A stretch of 64,000 nt of DNA from Ruminiclostridium josui JCM 17888 (GTDB lineage: Bacteria > Bacillota > Clostridia > Acetivibrionales > DSM-1351). The notes beneath the pieces were generated by a model. The model saw only the letters and a list, made by a program, of their open reading frames with translations. It did no database searches and was not told the DNA's origin. Made by a program: the position numbers and the translations under genes. The stretch covers positions 558,001-622,000 of the forward strand of contig NZ_JAGE01000002.1 of NCBI RefSeq assembly GCF_000526495.1, written 5' to 3'. Numbering within the stretch: the first letter of the stretch is position 1; every line of letters starts with the position of its first letter. Shown piece after piece: positions 45,993-58,084 of the stretch.

Positions 45993-46007
45993 TAAATATA
46001 AATCCTT

Positions 46008-46952
46008 CTATTCCCCCACCATACCATCTCCATCACGGTCATCCATATATTTATACAACCAGTGCTCCTTTGTGATTGGCAGCTTAATACCAGCTGCTTT
46101 TGCTTCAGCGATGGATACCTTACCGTTATGATTTTTATCTATAGCATCAAGGTTATGGTTCTTGTCAGAAGTAGACGTTTTAGGTGTAGTAGTCTTTGGT
46201 TTTTCTGAAGTTTTTTCAATTAAAGACTTATTTACTTTATCAGGATTCACATTATCAAAATCTTCAGTTATAACATTTCCCTTTAATGTATAGGTGTAAT
46301 GATAATGGCTGGGAATTTGAGTTTTTGTATTGGGATAAGTAATTATAGCTTCAAAATTGGTGCAACCACCTGCGTCTCTGATATTCTTTTCCATATATGC
46401 CTGATCGCCGTAGCGGTTTAAGGTACTGTCCTGGGGTGTTATATTGTAGGCGTTGGAGACACCACCCAAGGAGTCTGCAATAACATGCCCCTCATCCAAA
46501 TCTTTCCTCTCAGTACCAGGAACCTTTGCTTCATCATTATAGTAGCGACCATTATTCAACACTGGCTCCGTTTTTGGATTCTGAAGAACAATTTTTTTAG
46601 CCGTAACCCTGATTAATTGTCCGTATTCATTGGTATAGGCCCAGTATTCTCTGCTGCCATATCCAACATCGACTACCACCATGGGTTTTCTGGTTCCGGT
46701 GGTATCACCTCCATCAACTTTAATTTCCTTGTACTTTCCTTTAGATGGAGACGATTGAGTTGGTTTACTTGGCGCTTGAGCAGTAGTCTTGCTTGGTAAT
46801 TTTCTTTGATTTTCACTGGGTATTGCGGATTTTATAGCAGTACTATTTTCTGTTAAAGTCGAAGTTGAATTAATCTGCTCAGGAGCATTCTGTACAGTAC
46901 AACCTGTTAATAACGCTATTATAAGAAAATAAGCAATTATGTGTTTTCTCAA
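46008..46952 (-). CDS. DNA/RNA non-specific endonuclease-like lipoprotein
   Basis: 314 residues from TTG 46952 (AAAGGAG in front). Lipobox LLTGC; low-complexity Ser/Thr/Pro linker to ~75; nuclease domain with DLDEGHVIADSLGGVSNAYNITPQ, where the DxGH replaces the DRGH catalytic motif, and Asn-rich NRYGDQAYMEKNI; C-terminal Ca-binding EF-like segments (DKNHNGKVSIAEAK, DDRDGDGMVGE), Excalibur-like but without cysteines. Likely a surface nuclease for DNA scavenging or uptake. Confidence 0.82.
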   Translation of the reverse strand: MRKHIIAYFLIIALLTGCTVQNAPEQINSTSTLTENSTAIKSAIPSENQRKLPSKTTAQAPSKPTQSSPSKGKYKEIKVDGGDTTGTRKPMVVVDVGYGSREYWAYTNEYGQLIRVTAKKIVLQNPKTEPVLNNGRYYNDEAKVPGTERKDLDEGHVIADSLGGVSNAYNITPQDSTLNRYGDQAYMEKNIRDAGGCTNFEAIITYPNTKTQIPSHYHYTYTLKGNVITEDFDNVNPDKVNKSLIEKTSEKPKTTTPKTSTSDKNHNLDAIDKNHNGKVSIAEAKAAGIKLPITKEHWLYKYMDDRDGDGMVGE

Positions 46953-47126
46953 AGTAGTTTCTCCTTTAATTGCATTATTATTTTATAGGTTTCGGTATAT
47001 ATAATTAAGATTTCACTATATTAAAATATCTTTTTTAACAATAAAATATTCATTTTTATGGCTATGGTGGACTCGTTTTATGTCAAAAATTCCTTAAATT
47101 TATATTATATGTAAATAGGTAATCAC

Positions 47127-47152
47127 TATAATATTTGTAACAAAGCGCTTTG
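47127..47152. promoter_or_regulatory. TATAAT box with cre-like palindrome downstream
   Basis: TATAAT at 47127-47132 and the palindrome CAAAGCGCTTTG at 47141-47152, close to the AAAGCGCTTT core of CcpA operators. The site lies just before the SPRY-like gene and could repress it. The -35 region is poor. Confidence 0.35.
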
Positions 47153-47176
47153 AATTTAATTAATAAGGAGATTATT

Positions 47177-47711
47177 ATGAAAATTAAGTTTAAGAAAGTA
47201 ATATCTTTTGTGACTTTGTTTATTCTAATATTTTCACTTTCAGTTAATACATTTGAAGTAACTACATATGCAGCTACAAATCCTGTAACTTGGAATCCAA
47301 CGGATAAAGAATGGGGTGTTACTCTATCTAATGGCAATTTAACAGCTACTATTTCTGGTTTATCATCAGGAGTTAGAGCAAGTCTTGGAAAAAGCAGTGG
47401 AAAGTGGTATTGGGAATGTACTGTCGATAATAGGGGCTATAGTGAAATAGGCATAGCTAATAAAAGTATCGCTCCCAGCTGGGTACACAATGGTGAATGC
47501 AGTGGATTTAGCAGTTGGGGATACATGTAGACTTACTGTCGGAGATTTAAAAAATACGACAAAAACAACTTGGACTTCTTATGATTCTGAAATAGCAACA
47601 GTATCTAATAAAGGTAAAGTAACTGCTGTAGATGAAGGTTTAACATATATAACAGCTACAGATGAGCAAGGTAATGAACTTGGAAGAATATATATAAGAG
47701 TAAGAAATTAA
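47177..47711 (+). pseudogene. Secreted SPRY-like / BIG2 protein, broken at the domain junction
   Basis: ATG 47177 (AAGGAG upstream) encodes a signal peptide and the first ~80 residues of a SPRY-like domain (GVRASLGKSSGKWYWECTV), which ends at TAG 47528 after an unrelated HNGECSGFSSWGYM. From ~47490 another frame encodes a bacterial Ig-like (BIG2) domain: VDLAVGDTCRLTVGD, WTSYDSEIATVSNKGKVTAVDEG, ending IYIRVRN at 47711. The overlap suggests that a deletion joined a truncated SPRY domain to a downstream BIG2 domain out of frame. Confidence 0.6.
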
Positions 47712-47759
47712 GAGTTTTGGTGTTTGGATTAGAAAAATCATTATTAAATTATTAAATTA

Positions 47760-47775
47760 AAAATATTGCCAGATT
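47760..47775. terminator. Left half of a terminator stem split by the IS256-type element
   Basis: AAAATATTGCCAGATT at 47760-47775 is complementary to AATCTGGCAATATTTT at 49259-49274. Without the IS and one target copy, these would form a 16-bp stem with a ~19-base loop and a T-run. Confidence 0.8.
47768..47775. repeat. IS256-type target-site duplication, left (GCCAGATT)
   Basis: GCCAGATT precedes the left IS end and recurs at 49232-49239. Confidence 0.88.
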
Positions 47776-49231
47776 GAGCCTGTGAAGAAAAGTCTGTAAA
47801 ATCAGCTTTCTATGATAAAATCAAATTATCATAGGAGGCTATTTTTTATGGCAAGAAGAAAGAATTCGATGAGCGAAGGAAAAAAGAACATTATTGCATC
47901 CCTACTTCAAGAGTATGACATCAAGACTGCAGAAGACATCCAGGAAGCACTTAAAGACTTGTTAGGGGGTACCATTCAGAGCATGTTGGAAGCCGAGATG
48001 GATCAGCATTTAGGCTATGAACCATACGAACGTTCCAATAACACCAATTACAGGAACGGAAAAAATCCAAATCAATACAAAGTACATATGGTAAGATGGA
48101 AATTGACGTTCCACAAGATCGAGAATGTTCCTTTGAGCCTCAAATCGTGAAGAAGCGTCAAAAGGATATCTCAAGCATTGACCAAAAGATCATTGCTATG
48201 TATGCAAGAGGTTTGACAACTCGCCAGATCTCTGACCAGATCGAAGAAATCTACGGATTTGAAGTTAGTGAAGGCATGGTATCCGATATCACAAACAAAC
48301 TGCTTCCAGAAATTGAGGAATGGCAACAACGTCCACTATCCAGCGTTTACCCAATTGTATTCATAGATGCTGTGCACTTTTCTGTTAGGGACAACAATGT
48401 CATCAAGAAGCTGGCTGCATACATCATTCTTGGAATCAATGAAGAAGGCCAAAAGGAAGTGTTAAGCATTCAGATAGGCCAAAATGAAAGCAGTAAATAT
48501 TGGCTTAGTGTCCTAAATGAACTGAAGAACCGTGGAGTCAAGGATATTCTTATACTTTGTGCAGATGGCCTGAGTGGCATCAAGGAATCCATTGCTGTAG
48601 CTTTTCCGGAAACAGAGTATCAACGCTGCATAGTCCATCAGGTAAGAAACACACTAAAATATGTTGCAGACAAAGATAAGAAGGAGTTTGCTAATGACCT
48701 GAAGACAATCTACCATGCCCCTACAGAGGAGACCGGATATGAGCGTATGATGCAAATTACGGACAAGTGGCAGGACCGTTATCCTAACGCCATGAAGAGT
48801 TGGTCTACGAACTGGGATATCCTAAGCCCGATTTTCAAGTTTTCTACGGATGTTCGCAAGGTAATCTACACAACCAATGCTATAGAAAGCCTGAACAGCA
48901 CATATCGTCGTCTGAATCGTCAAAGAAGCGTATTTCCAAGTGACACAGCCCTCTTAAAGGCCCTATATCTAGCAACCTTTGAGGCAACCAAGAAGTGGAC
49001 TATGACTCTCCGTAACTGGGGTAAAGTCTACGGTGAGTTGTCCATCATGTATGAGGGCAGGCTTCAGCAATAAAATCAGGACAATCAAAAACACCCTTTT
49101 GGAAGGGTGCTATTGACATGCCATTAATTTACTATTATATTGTAGACAAGTTATGAAAGCCAGCATCTGGCCTTCACAACTCTAATAAAATTATCATAGA
49201 AAGCTATTTACAGAGATTATTTCACACACTC
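47776..49231 (+). mobile_element. IS256-family insertion sequence, 1456 bp
   Basis: Ends are imperfect inverted repeats: GAGCCTGTGAAG… at 47776 and the complement of GAGTGTGTGAAA… ending at 49231, with CTGTAAA and AGCTTTCTATGATAA shared further in. Flanked by GCCAGATT. Encodes one IS256-type transposase, frameshifted. Confidence 0.9.
47848..49073 (+). pseudogene. IS256-family transposase with a single-base frameshift
   Basis: ATG 47848 after AGGAGG. The first part (MLEAEMDQHLGYEPYERSN…NYRNGK) and second (MEIDVPQDRECSFEPQIVKK… to FEATKKWTM) make one ~409-residue mutator-type transposase. DDE residues: Asp in PIVFIDAVHFSV, Asp in LILCADGLSGIKES, Glu in YTTNAIESLNSTYRR. The frames meet at an A6 run (48060-48065), where A7 would be in frame. 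In the present frame the heptamer A AAA AAT fits a -1 slippery site, so a fusion product is conceivable. Confidence 0.88.
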
Positions 49232-49239
49232 GCCAGATT
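49232..49239. repeat. IS256-type target-site duplication, right (GCCAGATT)
   Basis: Identical to 47768-47775. Confidence 0.88.
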
Positions 49240-49258
49240 TTATCTAATTAAATAGAAT

Positions 49259-49276
49259 AATCTGGCAATATTTTTC
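49259..49276. terminator. Right half of the split terminator stem
   Basis: AATCTGGCAATATTTT plus a T-run. Complement of 47760-47775, as described there. A stem can also form with the right copy GCCAGATT (49232-49239). Confidence 0.75.
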
Positions 49277-49324
49277 AATATAATATTAAATTTTAATACA
49301 CAAAACTATCTGCAGTCCCAGTTA

Positions 49325-50770
49325 TTACTTATATCCCCAACATTCTATACCAAAAATTCTAGCCATATTATCTATTTTGGATGGTTTAGTAATATAAACA
49401 CGATAGTACCTATATTTTTGTCCATCTATGTAATTTGTGGTCTGCTCTTTAGTATTTCCTTCTATTTTTGCTAGGTTTACCCAATCAGTCATATTATTAC
49501 TGCCTTGAATGCAATAATCAATCAAGTACAAATCAGTTGAACGAAAGTCATGTATAACTACAAACTTAGAAATAGATTGCTCTTTCTTTAAGTCTAGCAT
49601 TAACCACTGAGGATCTGCTATATCATTTGATATCCACATATCAGTGTCAAACCCATTGTATTTACCGTTTATCACTCTTTCCGCTTTAAAGCATATACCA
49701 TATGCGTCCAACTCACTGCTTGCAGTTACTAAAGCATCAGTAGCATAGTTTATAAGTTCTTTTTCTTCCCCACACTGCATTAAAATATCATCAGACATGG
49801 TTGTACAATATTGTGAGTATAACTCATTAATCAATATACGAAAATCATTATTAGAGGATTGTATTTCTTTGGTATATTTAGTTATGGAGTTTTCATCAAC
49901 GTTTTTCTTAATAGCTTTTCTAAGAAAACTATTAAATACTATTAACCTTTCATTCGAATATTTCACTTTAAAATCTTCATAATTTTTTTTGCTTGTACTA
50001 TCCTCACCTAATTGATCATATAATCTGTCCAATATTTTAAAAATACTCTGTGTAGAATCAACAAGGTCCCTTTTATATAGTTCGGCAGCGGTTATATCAA
50101 AGTTCTTATTTTGAATTACGTTTCTTATCAAGTTATCATTTTCAACAATATAGTTATTATCTACTACATCTTTCAAAAAAATAAAATCACTATAATTAAC
50201 TTTTTTAGCATTTCGGGGTCTAATATAGTAGAATCTATTAGCATAATTAGAGATATTTTCAATGAAGTATTTGTTTCCTTCTTCCCATATGTCTAAGAAA
50301 ATCTCTTCTTTGAGTGTTAAGCAATAAAAAGGATTATCAAAACCAACATGTGAGCAATCCATAATGGTAATAGTAGATGTTTCTTCATTATAGCCATTAA
50401 TAATAATTCCATGAGGTCCATGTGCTTTTCTATAATTGAAATCACAATAGAACATACTGAAATAATCAAAATATAAAACTATAGGATATTTTTCATCTAG
50501 AACAGATTTTAGAGTGCTAAGAAGTGACTCTCTATTTGTAATATTTACTGTCACTAATTCTAAAACTAATTTATTTAGCTTTATGTTCATTGATTCAAAT
50601 CGCTCGACATTAGTTTCCCATATTAGACGTAATGAATAATACGCACAAAAATAAAAATAATTCTCATATTCGAAATATCCTGATGCTATAGCCATGGGAG
50701 CATCCACGCAGTTTATAGTTTTATAATAATAGCTGTCATTTGCATAATTAGGTATATGTAGTCTTTGCAT
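49325..50770 (-). CDS. BtrH-like protein with C-terminal discoidin (F5/8 type C) domain
   Basis: 481 residues from ATG 50770 (AGGAGGAATTTT in front). The first ~190 residues fit the BtrH N-terminal fold, a cysteine-protease-like acyltransferase domain: a Cys in KTINCVDAPMAIASG, then HGPHGIIINGYN and ITIMDCSHVG. A helical middle (200-340) leads to a discoidin-like domain (ASSELDAYGICFKAERVING… WLMLDLKKEQSISKFVV… YRYYRVYI). No signal peptide. BtrH-type enzymes act in peptide/aminoglycoside natural-product assembly; pairing with a carbohydrate- or surface-binding module is unusual. Function unknown. Confidence 0.65.
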   Translation of the reverse strand: MQRLHIPNYANDSYYYKTINCVDAPMAIASGYFEYENYFYFCAYYSLRLIWETNVERFESMNIKLNKLVLELVTVNITNRESLLSTLKSVLDEKYPIVLYFDYFSMFYCDFNYRKAHGPHGIIINGYNEETSTITIMDCSHVGFDNPFYCLTLKEEIFLDIWEEGNKYFIENISNYANRFYYIRPRNAKKVNYSDFIFLKDVVDNNYIVENDNLIRNVIQNKNFDITAAELYKRDLVDSTQSIFKILDRLYDQLGEDSTSKKNYEDFKVKYSNERLIVFNSFLRKAIKKNVDENSITKYTKEIQSSNNDFRILINELYSQYCTTMSDDILMQCGEEKELINYATDALVTASSELDAYGICFKAERVINGKYNGFDTDMWISNDIADPQWLMLDLKKEQSISKFVVIHDFRSTDLYLIDYCIQGSNNMTDWVNLAKIEGNTKEQTTNYIDGQKYRYYRVYITKPSKIDNMARIFGIECWGYK

Positions 50771-50851
50771 AAAATTCCTCCTAAAATACAAATAACTGTA
50801 CTTCAGTTACATTTTTTTCCACGTTATAATTTAAGTATATTGTATAGATAA

Positions 50852-51271
50852 TTACATGTCAATGTCTCTTTTATATAAAGAACCAACTCCATTACTAAAG
50901 TTAATATCTGTAGCCTTTATAGTTTCCTTTTTATATTTTAGAGTTCCATCTTCTTTGAGTACTTGCGGTGATAAGATTGATGAATTACTAGCTGAGATAT
51001 CTCTATCTATAACCGCTATATTCTGGAATTTACCAGTAGAATATTTGTGGAGTGTATTATTTTCAGTATTCCAACCGTATTCACTATGTGGGACTGGTTT
51101 ATAATACAGAATAAACAAAGCATAAAGAATTGTAATCACTGTTATAACCAAACTAATTTTTTTCAGTAAGTTATGTAAGTTTGGCTCTATTCTTTTTTTT
51201 AGATATCTGCCTATAGAAATTGATAAAATCATTGGAATAAATATAATTAACGTTAAAAAATTATCTTTCAT
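50852..51271 (-). CDS. Small membrane protein of unknown function
   Basis: 139 residues from ATG 51271 behind GGAGGAAT; a longer frame to 51400 runs into the GH43 gene and lacks a ribosome site. Two membrane segments (LTLIIFIPMILSISIG and ISLVITVITILYALFILYY) and a polar C-terminal domain. Lies between the GH43 and BtrH-like genes on the same strand. Confidence 0.6.
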   Translation of the reverse strand: MKDNFLTLIIFIPMILSISIGRYLKKRIEPNLHNLLKKISLVITVITILYALFILYYKPVPHSEYGWNTENNTLHKYSTGKFQNIAVIDRDISASNSSILSPQVLKEDGTLKYKKETIKATDINFSNGVGSLYKRDIDM

Positions 51272-51362
51272 AATAATACTATTCCTCCTCCAGAACTCGC
51301 CATTATTGCTGCATAATCTAGTTATTTTCATATCCCATGCGCAGTTATATATACGTAGTTGA

Positions 51363-53022
51363 TTAATTAATTTTACTTCCCCAAATTGCAACATTGCCAT
51401 TTTTAGCTATTGCACTGAACGTCATAACAAATTTTTTGAGACTATTCTCCCATTGTCTTAGCACAACACCTGAATAATCAACTCCATTTACAGTTAATTC
51501 AATGTTCTCGTCACTTAGCTTCCATTTTCCATTTACACTACCAGAAATTGTACCTTCTTTATTTAGTGTTATTTTTACAGAGTTTTTAATGGCAGAACTA
51601 ATTTCATTACCATGATTAATAAATGCATAGTCTCCGTAAACTTCGTCTGCAATATATTTTGAAATAGTTTCACCACCATAGCGATGTGGTGCAACAACAG
51701 GCCATCCATCCTCATTTATAAACATTTGATGTACTCGCACCTGATGAAATTCTCCCTGACCAGGAAATCTGGTATGGAAAATAAGATAATACTTTTTTGT
51801 CTCTGCATCGTAATATGCTGAATTATGGCCTGGAGAAACATAGCCTACTCCATTTTCAGTAAACTTGAAATTTCCCATAACTTTAACACCATAAGGTTCG
51901 ATAGACCTATCATCAAAGATTGTACCAGCAGCACCTTGACAGTCAATCATATTTTTTCCTTTACCATCTACAAAAGGGCCATCAGGGTTTTTAGAGCGCG
52001 CAACCCTAATATTATAACCACCAGTAGAATCAAGACCGCCAAAACTTAAAAACAAGTAATAATAATCCGATTGAGGACTATATAGCATATAAGGAGCTTC
52101 AATTCTACTGTGATTTCCTCCTAACAATTTCTTTCCATAGCCTTGACCTGGATAAGGCTTTCCTGTTTTAGGATCCATCTTCATAATGAAGATACCTCCT
52201 GAATACGATCCATAAACCATCCACAGATTTCCGTCTTTATCAAAAAATGTATGAGGATCAACAGTATTAGGATCTCTCGTAGCATTATAAACTGTTCCAG
52301 CTTCACCTATTCCATTCATTCCAGATTTCAATAGAATGCCTGCATTTTTATAAGGACCTGTTACATTATCAGATACTGCCAAACCGAGAGTAGACCTTGG
52401 GGAATCACCTTTACATAAGCAATAATACATGTAAAATTTCCCATCCTGAAGCTGGATTATATCGCCTGCCCACATTGTATCGGTTTGCGCCCAGTCAAAT
52501 GATTCTTTTAATTCTGTAAATACATTCGGTATTAAAGGATTTGTGTTACTCACACTTGAAGAAATTTGATACCATTGCATTAAGTCATTAGTTTTTGCAG
52601 AAGCTAGATGTGAACCAATAACATAATAAGTTCCATTTGTCTTGATAATTGAAGGATCATGCACTGTTACATCTTTAAACGTAGGTATAATTGGAGTTTG
52701 AGGCAAATTCTCAACAGGAAACACAGATATTATCCCTAATAAAAACTGTTTATATATAGCAAAGTCAATTGCATCAACTAAACTATCTCCATTTACATCC
52801 GCTGCCTTAAAAGCGTCTGCTGTTAGGGTAACATTCCCCAGCAAATATTTCTTTATTTGTGCAAAATCTATCGCATTGATCTGACCATCCCCGTCTACAT
52901 CACCATATTTTACCGAATTATTTTTCAAGTGACGATGCATTTGTTGATGTAAAAATACTAGCTAATAAAACAAAAAGCACCATTGCAAAACTTATTTTCT
53001 TTGATATCAATTTAATTTTCAC
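51363..53022 (-). pseudogene. GH43 endo-arabinanase with N-terminal dockerin; signal peptide out of frame
   Basis: GTG 53022 (GGGGGAG upstream) encodes a signal peptide that ends …STNASSLEK and stops. In the next frame a type I dockerin (GDVDGDGQINAIDFAQIK and ADVNGDSLVDAIDFAIYK), a short linker and a GH43 five-blade domain follow, with catalytic Asp in VHDPSII, Asp in VDPHTFFD and Glu in SRIEAPYML, plus a C-terminal beta domain. The frames join if one A is removed from the A5 run (52921-52925). As written the enzyme would start at MHRHLKNN (52940), lack a signal and stay in the cell. Subfamily by motif: arabinan endo-1,5-arabinanase. Confidence 0.85.
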
Positions 53023-53183
53023 AAAGCTCTCCCCCTTTAAAATACCTACTACTTATGAGTACCCTCCAAATTTATTCTATAATAAAAAGGCGAAAAATCA
53101 AGTATATAATGGCTATTATTACAAAATATTCCACATACTACTTTGTTTATTATGCTATAACACCCATAACCTCCTTATATAGC

Positions 53184-53213
53184 AAAAGAACCTACCCATT
53201 GGTAAGTTCTTTT
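53184..53213. terminator. Hairpin terminator
   Basis: AAAAGAACCTACC (53184-53196) and GGTAAGTTCTTTT (53201-53213), one mismatch. It lies downstream (minus strand) of the decayed cohesin-like fragment. Confidence 0.75.
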
Positions 53214-53229
53214 ACTTAAAAATATTTAA

Positions 53230-53416
53230 TTATTTATTAGCAGTATAGTTGGCATTAGCCAGTATTTGAGCAACTACTTCCGTTAAATCATCATCGTCAA
53301 TCTGCAATACGTACGTTAGTGATATCAATCATTGCTTCACCTTTATCAATAGCTTTGAACTTCAATTTGAGTAATACTTTATCTCCATTTGCTGCGTTGT
53401 CTTTAATGCTATAGGG
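53230..53416 (-). pseudogene. C-terminal fragment of a cohesin-like domain
   Basis: Minus-strand reading gives SIKDNAANGDKVLLKLKFKA, IDKGEAMIDITNVRIAD, then a stop; removing one base at ~53299 continues to DDDDLTEVVAQILANANYTANK and TAA. The beta-strand pattern resembles the end of cohesin domains. There is no start codon; the fragment begins 7 bp after a hairpin of the RiPP locus. Remnant of a gene disrupted by arrival or rearrangement of that locus. Confidence 0.45.
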
Positions 53417-53422
53417 TTAAAC

Positions 53423-53461
53423 AAAGACTCGCATGAAAGACTTCCTTCCCTGCGAGTCTTT
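53423..53461. repeat. Hairpin, second copy (AAAGACTCGCA)
   Basis: AAAGACTCGCA (53423-53433) pairs with TGCGAGTCTTT (53451-53461). It is nearly the same as the hairpin at 56751-56790, which lies directly behind the intact precursor gene. Confidence 0.88.
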
Positions 53462-53492
53462 GGGTTGCATATGCTAATAAATAATCTAGCCC

Positions 53493-53624
53493 CTAACTCC
53501 GTGCTGCTTTTGCAAGATTATCATTAGAATTATAATTCGTGGAGCCGTAACTGCATTGACAAGCACATGCTGCATACATGCTTCCACCATAACTTTGATT
53601 TTCAGATAGTATACTTTGATATGT
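53493..53624 (-). pseudogene. Leaderless remnant of a second Cys-rich precursor
   Basis: An open frame of 43 codons reads …SENQSYGGSMYAACACQCS… and ends …NLAKAARS. The CACQC core parallels the PCSCTC core of the intact precursor. A stop lies just before the frame (53625-53627), and the only ATG (53579) is inside the core region, so there is no leader. It overlaps the end of the M16 gene by ~23 bp and is followed by the second hairpin copy. Confidence 0.6.
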
Positions 53625-54933
53625 TTAATGTGTTTGAATAATTTTTTGCTACATTTACAGCAATAGCTGTATTACAACTAGATAATAATCTTTTTATATA
53701 AGAATCCACATTTAGAATTGTCATTTCATTTATAAATCCAAGGCTTATATTATATTCATCCTCCAATGATAAAACCGGTTCATCATACAGAAATTCATTA
53801 ATGTATTCCTTCATCAAATTTTCAGTTCTGAGAATATATCTATTTGTATAATTGTTATTTATACTCTGTATAAATAAATCCTTGCAGTATATGAACTCAT
53901 CAAAAGTAAATCCTTCAGAGTATAATCTCTGTAATTCTCGAAGCACCACAACTAATATATCCTGTATATTATCCTTTATTTTTATATCAAGTACACTAAA
54001 AGCGTACTTTCTTAAAAATCTATTCTTTATACATATTAAATTTATTAATTTCAGTCCAGCTTCTTTTATGGTATTGATTATCCGTCTTTCAATCAAATAA
54101 TTAGCCGTATTCTCAACTATTTTTTGCTTAAATCCTGAGATGGTGTTTTCACAATACCTTTCTTGCATATAGTATATTTGAACTTCTGCACAATCTAATT
54201 TTTCATATGTGTTTAAAGTATATCTCTTACTCTGATAATCCGAAATTTTCTGGTATAATCTATTATGTTTTTCATTATTGGGTAATGTACTAAAAGTTTT
54301 ATTAACTATTGCTTCCATTTTCAAAGGGTCTATATCTCCACAAACTATAATTGCCATTAACTCGGGTTTATACCAATTTCTGTGAAAATTCACCAAATCC
54401 TCATATGTAAAATTCCTTACATTCTCAATTTGTCCAATAGGCATTCGTCTACAATAATCAGACTCATTTAATATATGTGGTAAAATGTTTTGCTTTTTTA
54501 TGAACTCAATCGTCTCTTCAGTATTGTACCACTCATTTATAATTCCTTTTCGGACGCTTTCAATATGCTCTTTATTAATTGCATTTCCCTGCAAAATTCC
54601 GTTAAGAATAAAAATACATTTTTCAATGTTTTTTGCTGTTGAAGAGCATTTCAGTTTAAATACAGTTTCATCAAAATTCGTATATCCATTTGGAATAATG
54701 CCATTGTGAGTCTCGTCACCCGAGGAATAGCATTCAGTGTAATTGAACAAACATATATGTTCAATAAAATGTGCAATCCCACACTGCTCTTCTGTTTCTA
54801 CTGCCGAACCCACCTTAATTGCCAGACTAAAAGTTACATATCCTATCGGATTGTTATTAGGATAAATATAATACGTCAGGCCATTTTCTAGAGTCCTTTT
54901 AATCAAATTTTTATCCATTAGATATTTTTGCAT
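53602..54933 (-). CDS. M16-family (insulinase-like) metallopeptidase of the RiPP locus
   Basis: 443 residues. Inverted zinc motif HxxEH in GIAHFIEHICLF (~60) with the third ligand Glu in GIINEWYNTEE, then the typical middle YEDLVNFHRNWYKPELMAIIVCGD. Single-chain peptidases of this kind occur in RiPP loci and trim leader peptides. Start ATG 54933 with a weak ribosome site. It lies 39 bp after the radical SAM gene and is co-directional with the precursor. Confidence 0.87.
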   Translation of the reverse strand: MQKYLMDKNLIKRTLENGLTYYIYPNNNPIGYVTFSLAIKVGSAVETEEQCGIAHFIEHICLFNYTECYSSGDETHNGIIPNGYTNFDETVFKLKCSSTAKNIEKCIFILNGILQGNAINKEHIESVRKGIINEWYNTEETIEFIKKQNILPHILNESDYCRRMPIGQIENVRNFTYEDLVNFHRNWYKPELMAIIVCGDIDPLKMEAIVNKTFSTLPNNEKHNRLYQKISDYQSKRYTLNTYEKLDCAEVQIYYMQERYCENTISGFKQKIVENTANYLIERRIINTIKEAGLKLINLICIKNRFLRKYAFSVLDIKIKDNIQDILVVVLRELQRLYSEGFTFDEFIYCKDLFIQSINNNYTNRYILRTENLMKEYINEFLYDEPVLSLEDEYNISLGFINEMTILNVDSYIKRLLSSCNTAIAVNVAKNYSNTLNISKYTI

Positions 54934-54972
54934 ATCAATATTCTCTCATCATACAAAGTCTGTAATAAGGTG

Positions 54973-56571
54973 CTATAATACCTGCAGATCATTTAGGTAT
55001 TTTAATTTTTCCGGATTTTTTTCAACGCACTCGTGGTATAAGATTAGTCCCTCTAATATGTTTTTTCGAGTAATTTCACAAGTCATAATCTTCTTTTTCA
55101 TATCCAATTGATCATTTGTATAACAGCTTGAATAGCATATGCCGCACATTCTGGCTGCCCAACATTTAGAACAGTACTTTAATGACTCCTCTGCATATTG
55201 CTCTATATATACAGATCTAATCCTGTCAATATCAATACCTGTAAATACATTACCTATGGTTATTGCACCTCCTACCTTCTCACATACCAGAAAATCTCCA
55301 TCAATATTCACATACAATCTTCTTTGTCCAGGCAAGCAATTACCATTAAATCCTATTTTGTCACTTGGTTTATCTACTAACGTTCTTCTCTGTATTCTAA
55401 GCAGCATTTCTTCTATCCCTTTTTTTGTAAAGAAATCTGCTTCTTGATTATTTAAAATTTGATTTAGATACTTTTCTCTGGACCATCTGGACATAGTATA
55501 GTCTGCTTTGATTTCCAACAAGTCATTTTGATACTCTACATACTCTGTATCCATAAAATGATAACGTCTCTCATCAGCCACAGACCCCTCTGATGGATAG
55601 CTAACTGACTTTGCCATTTTTTTAGGGAACCAATCAAGCCCTTCAATAAACTTTTCAATCTCCGTCAATTTTCCTGTACTATATGGAGGGGTAAAAACCA
55701 TGCTAAGACTTAGTCTGTGTTCTGCTGAATCACCAAATGCTTCTACTATGTTTTTTAATCCTCTTATTGCTCTGCTAAAGCTACCATTTCCATTTATATC
55801 TTTTCTATAGCTATCATGTATGTTTTCAGGGCCATCAAGGCTGCAAACTACTGATAATCCTTCAATAGAAGCTAAATATTCTGCTATATCCTTAGTTACA
55901 AGTGTTAAGTTGGTTGTTAACGAGTATGTTATTTCCCTATCCTTAATTACTTCTCTCGAATAATCGATGCTATACTTCAATAAATCAAATCTTAAAAGAG
56001 GCTCTCCGCCATAGAATGTAACCGCTACAGTCTTTTCATTTTTTCCATGCTCTGCAATGTAATCAATAGCTGCCCTTATAGTTTCTTCAGACATATCTCT
56101 TTGACCAAAGTCTCTTTTTTGCTCATAATCAGGGTTATATATGCAATAACCACATCGTAAATTACATCGTTCAGTTAATTCCAATATAATTTGCCTTAAA
56201 TTACCGTTTATTTTACTTTCAATATCATCAAAATGTAATGGCGAATAAAATTCATTGTAACGAGTTAACTGGAGGATTTTTTCATTTTCTATTGCATATT
56301 TCACATTTTCACATGCATCAATTAACTCTTTTTCACCCAACTGTTCTTGAAGCTTACACAATTCTTGTTCAATGTTATTTTTTAATATAGCTTCCAAGAC
56401 TTTATACTCTACCTTATTACATTCCAGAACCTTACCAGTTCCCGAATCATAAATATAATCATTAGAGCTAGTCCTAAACAACTTTGCTAATGGTTTTTCC
56501 CCTTTATTCAAGCTGTTAAAGTACTGTATGTATTTATAAACTTCTTGTGAAATATGTTCCTTTACATTCAC
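54973..56571 (-). CDS. Radical SAM/SPASM peptide maturase
   Basis: 532 residues from GTG 56571 behind GGAGGG; the open frame to 56715 has no site. N-terminal ~130 residues are RRE-like/helical. Radical SAM motif CNLRCGYCIYN at ~150, then a C-terminal SPASM domain binding extra Fe-S clusters (CLPGQRRLYVNIDGDFLVCE…, CSKCWAARMCGICYSSCYTND). Such enzymes install thioether or related crosslinks on cysteine-rich precursors. The family resembles the clostridial Cys-rich-peptide maturases. The intact precursor gene lies upstream, across the hairpin at 56751-56790. Confidence 0.9.
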   Translation of the reverse strand: MNVKEHISQEVYKYIQYFNSLNKGEKPLAKLFRTSSNDYIYDSGTGKVLECNKVEYKVLEAILKNNIEQELCKLQEQLGEKELIDACENVKYAIENEKILQLTRYNEFYSPLHFDDIESKINGNLRQIILELTERCNLRCGYCIYNPDYEQKRDFGQRDMSEETIRAAIDYIAEHGKNEKTVAVTFYGGEPLLRFDLLKYSIDYSREVIKDREITYSLTTNLTLVTKDIAEYLASIEGLSVVCSLDGPENIHDSYRKDINGNGSFSRAIRGLKNIVEAFGDSAEHRLSLSMVFTPPYSTGKLTEIEKFIEGLDWFPKKMAKSVSYPSEGSVADERRYHFMDTEYVEYQNDLLEIKADYTMSRWSREKYLNQILNNQEADFFTKKGIEEMLLRIQRRTLVDKPSDKIGFNGNCLPGQRRLYVNIDGDFLVCEKVGGAITIGNVFTGIDIDRIRSVYIEQYAEESLKYCSKCWAARMCGICYSSCYTNDQLDMKKKIMTCEITRKNILEGLILYHECVEKNPEKLKYLNDLQVL

Positions 56572-56750
56572 TGATATTTCCCTCCATCCTCGTATATGTA
56601 AATTTATTACTTTAATGCTAATATACAGCATTACATATCTTTTTGTCAACGAAGTACTTACTTTTGTCTCCAATGTTTTACAGCTCACTACACTGTGGCT
56701 ATTGGTTTCAAACATATATTCAAATTATTCAAATAAATAAAACTATTAGC

Positions 56751-56790
56751 AAAGACTCGCATGAAAGGCTTTGTTCCAATGCGAGTCTTT
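56751..56790. repeat. Hairpin, first copy, between precursor and maturase genes
   Basis: AAAGACTCGCAT (56751-56762) and ATGCGAGTCTTT (56779-56790). On the minus strand it follows the precursor stop by ~18 bases. It may act as a partial terminator, giving many precursor transcripts and fewer of the maturase. Confidence 0.88.
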
Positions 56791-56807
56791 GATCTCATTT
56801 AAATAAT

Positions 56808-56936
56808 CTAAAACATACCTGCACCATTACTTGCATCTTGAACTAATACACTCCCAACACAAGTACAACTACAGGGCAAATTAGCCTGTGTTTTAAATGT
56901 AGAAACATCTCTTTCAACTGGATTTATTAATTTCAT
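56808..56936 (-). CDS. Cys-rich RiPP precursor peptide, 42 residues
   Basis: ATG 56936 follows AGGAGG. The leader starts MKLINPVERDVSTFKTQANL, followed by a core with PCSCTCVGSVLV and ending NGAGMF. Three cysteines in CxCxC spacing next to a radical SAM/SPASM maturase and M16 peptidase are typical of thioether RiPPs (sactipeptide or ranthipeptide type). Too short for ordinary gene calling. The crosslink type and the exact cleavage site cannot be told. Confidence 0.85.
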   Translation of the reverse strand: MKLINPVERDVSTFKTQANLPCSCTCVGSVLVQDASNGAGMF

Positions 56937-56998
56937 GCTCATCCTCCTTTCTCATTTAATTTATGTAAATGCTACCGGTAACCAAAATTATTAGGGAA

Positions 56999-57190
56999 TT
57001 AATAAGCCTCAATTTGATTAATGTGCTTTAATATTTTTACTACATTTATAGCAAGAGGAATTGCCATGTCGTTTAATCTATTTTGAATTAAATTGCCTTT
57101 ATTGTATTTTGCATTTGCAAATTCAATCATTTGACATTTTTCATCACAGATGCTAATATTTTGCAGAGGGAAATTGTCATATTTAGGAGG
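56999..57190 (-). pseudogene. C-terminal fragment of a gene upstream of the precursor
   Basis: An open frame ending NDMAIPLAINVVKILKHINQIEAY with stop at 56999-57001. It has one Met (57130) without a ribosome site, and runs back to the SH3b gene start. The end has some likeness to the M16 C-terminus (NTAIAVNVAKNYSNTLN), which would make this a second M16 relic; another RiPP accessory protein is also possible. Low certainty. Confidence 0.4.
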
Positions 57191-57197
57191 ATAAATT

Positions 57198-57692
57198 ATG
57201 AAGAATTTATCAAAATTTAAGGTATTTTTATCTGTAATATGTATTTGCTTTTTAGCAATTCCCCAAGTAGCAACTGCTGCTAACGTTACTTATAGAGTTG
57301 TCTTAACGGATCCTGGATACAATTTAAATGTTAGAGAGAAACCGAATACATCATCAAAAGTGGTCGGTAAGCTACCACCTGGAGAAGTTGTATCAATTTC
57401 TAAAACTAGTGGAGATTGGGGCTATATATATGATGGCCGGATTTGTGATGGCTGGATTAACTTAAAATATACTGCTGTTGGGGTTAAACGTGTCTCAGGC
57501 AGTCGGAAAACTACTGATAACCTAAATTTAAGAGAAGGTCCTGGGACAAATTACTCTAGGATGTATACTATACCAAAAGGTTCTACAGTAGAGATTTGGT
57601 ATACATATAAAGATTGGACTTATGTCTTTAATTCTAGTGGAAATTTAGAATGGATTTGTGGATGGGTAAATAGTAGTTATTTAAAAAAATAG
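57198..57692 (+). CDS. Secreted protein with two SH3b domains
   Basis: 164 residues, ATG 57198 after AGGAGG. Signal peptide (cut near VATAA), then two bacterial SH3 modules: LNVREKPNTSSKVVGKLPPG and LNLREGPGTNYSRMYTIPKG, each followed by the usual W-x-Y/V positions. These bind peptidoglycan or proteins at the cell surface. No catalytic domain. Divergent from the RiPP locus, replacing the 5' part of the fragment at 56999-57190. Confidence 0.87.
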   Translation: MKNLSKFKVFLSVICICFLAIPQVATAANVTYRVVLTDPGYNLNVREKPNTSSKVVGKLPPGEVVSISKTSGDWGYIYDGRICDGWINLKYTAVGVKRVSGSRKTTDNLNLREGPGTNYSRMYTIPKGSTVEIWYTYKDWTYVFNSSGNLEWICGWVNSSYLKK

Positions 57693-57858
57693 GTACTTAA
57701 TCAAACAAGTGTCTGCTCCCTCCAGACGCTTATTTGATTTTGCTATTATTGAAGCATACTCAGTTGCTTCTTCTAACAATTGATCACACAATTCTTTTCC
57801 TTCTTTGGTTACACATATTTTCAGTATCCCAATTTTCCTCCATTCCGCTTGTATTTAC
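57681..57858 (-). pseudogene. Possible gene fragment, unidentified
   Basis: Minus-strand open frame without ATG: EWRKIGILKICVTKEGKELC then DQLLEEATEYASIIAKSNKR. It overlaps the end of the SH3b gene. It reads like coding sequence but no family is recognised. The rest of 57693-57978 shows only a hairpin. Confidence 0.3.
57706..57732 (+). terminator. Terminator of the SH3b gene
   Basis: CAAGTGTCTG…CAGACGCTTA stem (57706-57731) with a CTCCCTC loop, followed by TTTGATTTT. Confidence 0.7.
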
Positions 57859-57978
57859 TGGTTTAACTCCATAGCCCATGATTTTTAATCTGTAAATGAG
57901 TTTTGTAAATATTGCTTGCCAAACAGAATAATCTTTTTTCAGTAATGCATATAATCAAGTATCCGATTTATTAAAATA

Positions 57979-58009
57979 AAAAACCACAAGACTTTGGCCT
58001 TGTAGTTTT
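57979..58009 (-). terminator. Terminator of the tRNA-Ala gene
   Basis: AAAAACCACAAG (57979-57990) pairs with CTTGTAGTTTTT (57999-58010); read on the minus strand it ends in a T-run directly behind the tRNA. Confidence 0.85.
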
Positions 58010-58084
58010 TGGTGGAGATAGAGGGACTTGAACCCTCGACTTCAACACTGCCAGTGTTGCACTCTCCCACTGAGTTATACCCCC
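58010..58084 (-). tRNA. tRNA-Ala (GGC), CCA encoded
   Basis: Minus-strand cloverleaf of 75 bases: acceptor GGGGGTA / TATCTCC with the alanine identity pair G3-U70, D arm ACTC…GAGT, anticodon stem CAACA/TGTTG with loop CTGGCAG (anticodon GGC, codons GCC/GCU), T arm GAGGG TTCAAGT CCCTC, then ACCA. Confidence 0.92.

Follow-up and report, generated by a model that had tools for sequence, protein, structure and literature searches.

A probably decayed and once duplicated sactipeptide cassette of the ruminococcin C/CA_C0660 type in Ruminiclostridium josui JCM 17888

A stretch of 64,000 nucleotides from Ruminiclostridium josui JCM 17888 (contig NZ_JAGE01000002.1, positions 558,001 to 622,000; "the window" means this whole stretch) carries a cysteine-rich open reading frame (ORF) of 42 amino acids (aa), a radical S-adenosyl-L-methionine (SAM)/SPASM maturase and an M16 peptidase. 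This locus is probably what remains, after one duplication and subsequent decay, of a cassette that encoded a double-hairpin sactipeptide of the ruminococcin C (RumC)/CA_C0660 type. An original prediction, made from the sequence alone, had seen in it an apparently undescribed thioether-type peptide with the 42-aa ORF as its precursor. The three genes do exist and lie on one strand, and the 42-aa ORF has both the CSCTC cluster and the strong ribosome site claimed for it (AAGGAGG, six bases 5' of the ATG). The thioether type also agrees with what was found, precursor and maturase being nearest to the NF035954/RumMC sactipeptide system. That the pathway is intact and its product undescribed is nevertheless unsupported, because the 42-aa ORF is without the second cysteine cluster, the second half of the precursor is without a leader or a convincing start, and no ATP-binding cassette (ABC) transporter is adjacent. 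The locus is best read, from its sequence, as a degenerate member of a type of system that is already known.

The two precursor halves and their enzymes

When the proposed family search was run with the 42-aa ORF (copy A), the best NCBIfam model was NF035954 (CA_C0660 family putative sactipeptide), with 41.4 bits and an E value of 1.1e-10. A family was thus found, but the match covers only positions 1-32 of the 64 positions of the model and stays below the curated cut-off of 60 bits, and the ORF can no longer be taken for a complete precursor. The same model is the sole NCBIfam match of a second fragment (fragment B), which had escaped the original prediction (E 0.022, positions 32-62), so that the two are complementary halves of one model. 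Neither copy A nor fragment B (14.8 bits) reaches the cut-off across the full 64 positions. Nor do the two cysteine clusters share a core: copy A has one and fragment B the other, and 3.2 kb separate the two ORFs.

Copy A was also found when its own genome was searched with a profile into which copy A itself had gone (E 6.8e-13, positions 1-40 of 64), and two such searches turned up no further precursor of the NF035954 kind in this genome. Its leader, MKLINP, is of the MK(L/V)(V/I)NP type expected of NF035954 precursors. Six homologous precursors were examined for comparison (L015, L016, L017, L020, L023 and L024; an ORF of L022 identical to the L016 precursor was left out of the count). Such a leader is present in four of them, while L017 has MLKVVDP and L020 is without one. 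All six have two cysteine clusters, the second of which is not in copy A: three precursors have two CxCxC clusters and the other three (L016, L020, L023) have CxC first and then a cluster containing CxCxC. In the alignments copy A ends at about the start of the second cluster of these relatives. In comparison with fragment B around 85 bases are absent from it (counted by eye), from mid-core to sequence past the original stop. Moreover, the stop codon of copy A is the start of an 11-mer, TAGATTATTTA, and the same 11-mer is found 4 bases past the stop of fragment B.

Fragment B is placed after the M16 gene and before a stem-loop, as the precursor is in L015. Its frame is open after an internal ATG at 53579-53577, and this ATG is preceded only by a weak GGTG that doubles there as Gly-Gly codons. 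It is read as the other half of a precursor on the grounds of its NF035954 match, its CxCxC motif, its location after the M16 gene and the stem-loop that follows it. That a frameshift joins fragment B to the M16 protein was also considered, the overlap of the frames being the sole support for this.

The best NCBIfam model of the maturase is NF035951 (RumMC), with 540 bits (E 4.5e-162). This is below the curated equivalog cut-off of 720, which is passed in none of 391 genomes of the class. The score is nearly double that of the runner-up, CcpM (274 bits of 500), and an assignment to CcpM/CLI_3235 or to SCIFF, the second and lower-ranked models, was rejected. Five other maturase genes of the same genome (L002, L003, L005, L006 and L007) do pass the CcpM (TIGR04068) cut-off, and a CLI_3235 family precursor is encoded at L005:1181-1363. 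Taken with the E value of copy A to NF035954, the match of the maturase to RumMC puts the combination of genes beyond chance. The start of the maturase is probably the GTG at 56571, the longest ORF beginning at 56715. The maturase profile aligns, from profile position 27, to residues 10-251 of the structure 5wgg, a region which we take to include the recognition element for ribosomally synthesized and post-translationally modified peptides (RiPP recognition element, RRE). The radical SAM motif CxxxCxxC and the SPASM cysteines (CX12GX4CX36CX2CX5CX2CX18C) are intact, the latter having been matched with a pattern that allows CX12-13G; the window has CX12G where CX13G is published (PMC6779426). 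The peptidase has an intact HxxEH motif (HFIEH at residues 55-59) and distal glutamate (Glu134). Its closest NCBIfam model is YfmH, with 51 bits of 250, and it shares 37% identity with its counterpart in the cassette of another genome of the genus (G008).

Remains of two units and intact cassettes in relatives

Each precursor half is followed by a stem-loop (Table 1), and the two stem-loops, which the original prediction does not mention, are copies of one another. No other site in the genome matches the 18-base stem arm within 2 mismatches and three further places match it with 3, and a genome-wide repeat was therefore rejected. The stem-loop appears to be part of the precursor gene, as a stem is also found behind the precursor in five of the six relatives (-14.3 to -32.1 kcal/mol per folded stretch, values without a shuffle control), the stem in L017 being weak (-8.2). 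CTCGCA and CATGCGAG are common to the G008 stem and those of the window. A scan found 0 ordinary intrinsic terminators, and such a role of the stem-loops is unsupported. Promoter-like sites are no commoner than in shuffles (20 against a shuffle mean of 22.9), and an 11-of-12 site before the maturase was therefore set aside.

Upstream of copy A, beyond the interval covered by the original prediction, the DNA at about 57012-57057 resembles the end of the intact M16 gene (48 aligned columns, score 50, the maximum of 500 mononucleotide shuffles being 38). The pair of stem-loops, the complementary precursor halves and this repeated peptidase tail together lead us to interpret the locus as what is left of a cassette that was once present as two units.

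Table 1. Features of the cassette and its flank (positions in the window)
Feature	Position	Strand	Basis
3'-end remnant of secreted-type gene adjoining the cassette, internal gap	53171..53405	-	blastn to L115
Stem-loop after precursor fragment B	53422..53462	-	-24.4 kcal/mol, 0/200 shuffles as stable
Fragment of precursor copy B with the second CxCxC cluster (CACQC) and the tail, without leader or start	53493..53624	-	NF035954, 14.8 bits
M16 metallopeptidase, 443 aa	53602..54933	-	PF00675 and PF05193
RumMC-like radical SAM/SPASM maturase, 532 aa	54973..56571	-	NF035951
Stem-loop after precursor copy A	56750..56791	-	-20.8 kcal/mol, 0/200 shuffles as stable
Precursor copy A, 42 aa: leader and first CxCxC cluster only	56808..56936	-	NF035954 match and own-genome profile search
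Degenerate tail of a second M16 gene, upstream of copy A	57000..57197	-	DNA match to intact tail at ~57012-57057

Among 60 related genomes two matched the maturase at E <= 1e-80, the own genome and G008, and these were also the only two among 58 genomes of the order at E <= 1e-120. At the latter threshold 3 of the 391 class genomes matched (the own genome, G310 and G409; G008 was not among them). A first scan of contigs with the single maturase as query confirmed no relative; a scan with four aligned maturases gave the best 80 of 437 loci encoding one, and gene order was examined in the six loci of lowest E value (L020, L021, L022, L023, L024 and L028).

The cassette of G008 is intact and has the order maturase, M16 peptidase, 68-aa precursor, stem-loop and ABC transporter. 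Its precursor, with the clusters CHCVC and CGCNC, matches NF035954 over positions 1-64 of 64 with 88.7 bits, above the cut-off, and its maturase (535.5 bits) is likewise below 720. Unlike in G008, where the transporter follows the precursor, none was found beside the window locus, and of 31 matches to the G008 transporter in the own genome (E <= 1e-20; the best-scoring 31% identical) none is near it. In L020, from a Lachnospiraceae bacterium, the order is maturase, M16 peptidase, precursor and an ABC-sized ORF, and in L024, from Paenibacillus tuaregi, it is maturase, precursor, M16 relative and an ABC-sized ORF, these two last ORFs not having been family-scanned. The P. tuaregi precursor (L024:8571-8777) has CNCVC and CGCGC and reaches 47.1 of 60 bits to NF035954. 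By blastp no M16 relative is behind the maturase in L021, L022 and L023, and the sequence of L028 ends just past the maturase; L016 and L017 stood outside this comparison. With the cysteine pattern used, no precursor was found in L021 and L028. RumMC-like maturases paired with an M16 peptidase are thus seen in this genus, in a Lachnospiraceae bacterium and in a Paenibacillus. In Ruminiclostridium cellobioparum a 71-aa cysteine-rich ORF (CECSSCSCTC, L034:6711-6926) precedes a distant radical SAM gene.

The history that we infer presumes an ancestral order as in G008. After duplication, the maturase and the greater part of the peptidase would have disappeared from the upstream unit, and a deletion of about 85 bases, which runs from mid-core to a point just past the original stop, would have removed the second hairpin from its copy A. 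The downstream unit would have kept maturase and peptidase intact, with a copy B that is without leader and first hairpin. If the system were intact, the maturase would bind the MKL(V/I)NP leader through its N-terminus (the RRE in RumMC) and, with its radical SAM/SPASM core, would join the cysteines of each cluster to alpha-carbons within each half. Removal of the leader would fall to the M16 peptidase, and export of the product to the ABC protein. Copy A has the make-up of RumC2 1-40 (leader and first hairpin), which PMC6779426 calls an "extremely poor substrate" of its maturase. By analogy with that other enzyme, the best expectation is that little or no normal product would come from the window locus.

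Alternative explanations

Several observations weigh against a decayed duplicate. Copy A retains its leader and ribosome site, and maturase and peptidase look full-length with their motifs intact, all of which is compatible with recent decay and equally with continued use. The upstream peptidase tail is not significant as protein, its score being reached by 134 and 377 of 500 shuffles. Fragment B scores 9.3 bits (E 0.16) against the profile of the six sequences, while shuffled maxima were 4.7-11.2 in 20 sets, and it is absent from the matches of both own-genome profile searches. Its pairwise scores were reached by 0 (L017), 2 (L024), 8 (L016), 31 (L015) and 114 (L023) of 1000 shuffles, and its pairing with L024 falls on the first cluster and not on the second. 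An assembly error is also a possible cause of the split precursor.

Two explanations in which the locus still makes a peptide deserve consideration, and a surviving natural single-hairpin derivative or a split RumC-type sactipeptide, with hairpins from genes flanking a shared maturase, is unlikely even when both are taken together. The 42-aa ORF might be a working, shortened precursor with a single hairpin, still made and trimmed by the operon, as its intact leader, start and AAGGAGG and the motifs of both enzymes would allow. Moreover, the four alpha-thioethers of RumC form two hairpins that are installed independently (PMC6779426, PMC8188230), and the sactipeptides described before RumC are single hairpins (PMC6779426). 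However, the two clusters of all six homologous precursors, the behaviour of RumC2 1-40 and the transporter not found adjoining the genes make this unlikely. Translation and modification of copy A and fragment B alike, giving a two-peptide product or a mixture, could draw on the complementarity of the halves, on the open frame of fragment B and on RumC2 28-63, a leaderless second half that is efficiently modified in vitro (PMC6779426). It is nevertheless hardly credible, as fragment B has no leader and only its weak GGTG before the ATG, and the precursor is split in none of the six relatives. An unrelated new class of cysteine-rich thioether peptide, which the wording of the original prediction allows, would be in line with window scores that are all below the curated cut-offs. 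It is very improbable, since the top models of precursor and maturase are both of RumC-type sactipeptide systems and the G008 precursor is above its cut-off although the G008 maturase is below 720.

With a decayed duplicate preferred, a tempting lead is corrected: half a precursor is the best reading of the 42-aa ORF, and therefore its expression in search of a new product is unlikely to repay the effort. A better candidate should be the intact precursor of 68 aa in G008, a genome of the same genus. The locus would moreover be a readable case of the decay of a RiPP cassette following duplication.

Surroundings and known systems

The cassette lies at what looks like a rearranging site. The remnant next to it matches L115:6998-7103 and L115:7299-7445 by blastn (90% and 79%), and its homologue in G002 is the end of an intact 782-aa secreted-type ORF with fn3 and TSP_C domains. 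A tRNA-Ala(GGC) gene at 58010-58084 of the window is present in six of eight fetched neighbourhoods of the genus, and thiN in all 11 genus genomes searched, the own included. In eight stretches of the genus, one of them of just 4.2 kb, no maturase and no peptidase was found next to thiN; this comparison shows variability of the site and does not date or explain the arrival of the cassette. Behind the tRNA gene, window positions 46000-58010 differ widely from four stretches of the genus (L112-L115), some of which have transposase-like or reverse-transcriptase-like ORFs as judged by reading, without a family scan. Dockerin and GH43 domains are encoded near the locus, as would fit a clostridium that forms cellulosomes, and the ORF at 49325-50791 joins a BtrH_N domain to a C-terminal F5/8 type C (discoidin) domain, a pairing that is to our knowledge unusual.

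No paper on a RumC-like locus of this genus, or on split RumC-type precursors, was recognised among the literature matches listed. The nearest known system is ruminococcin C of Ruminococcus gnavus with its maturases RumMC1 and RumMC2, which shares with the window the top maturase model and the radical SAM and SPASM cysteines, and with the relatives of the window two cysteine clusters in the precursor. Among PDB chains the RumC structure 6t33 ranks first in a search with the precursor profile, yet with an E value of 1.1. The published operon has five precursors and two maturases, and RumC is described with four core cysteines and activation by trypsin, whereas three of the six relatives have two CxCxC clusters and three a CxC and a CxCxC-containing cluster, the cassette has an M16 peptidase and the window precursor consists of two remnants. 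The CA_C0660 family is the best precursor family, and the G008 precursor matches it at full length and above the cut-off, whereas the window ORF spans half of the model and is under it. CA_C0658, a radical SAM gene near CA_C0660 by tag number, is among the putative sactipeptide clusters tabulated in PMC4289311. The same paper lists for Clostridium cellulolyticum H10 a putative sactipeptide cluster of thuricin-like type, in which two precursors share a single radical SAM gene. The CcpM/CLI_3235 bacteriocins (TIGR04068, TIGR04065) provide the second-best maturase model and are present elsewhere in the own genome, but their precursors are of another family. In subtilosin A, listed as a sactipeptide in PMC4289311, an M16B peptidase likewise serves a sactipeptide, although AlbE and AlbF are a pair and the window has a single M16 gene. 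As this pair takes part in the maturation of subtilosin (PMC12731061), there is a precedent for an M16 peptidase in a sactipeptide system.

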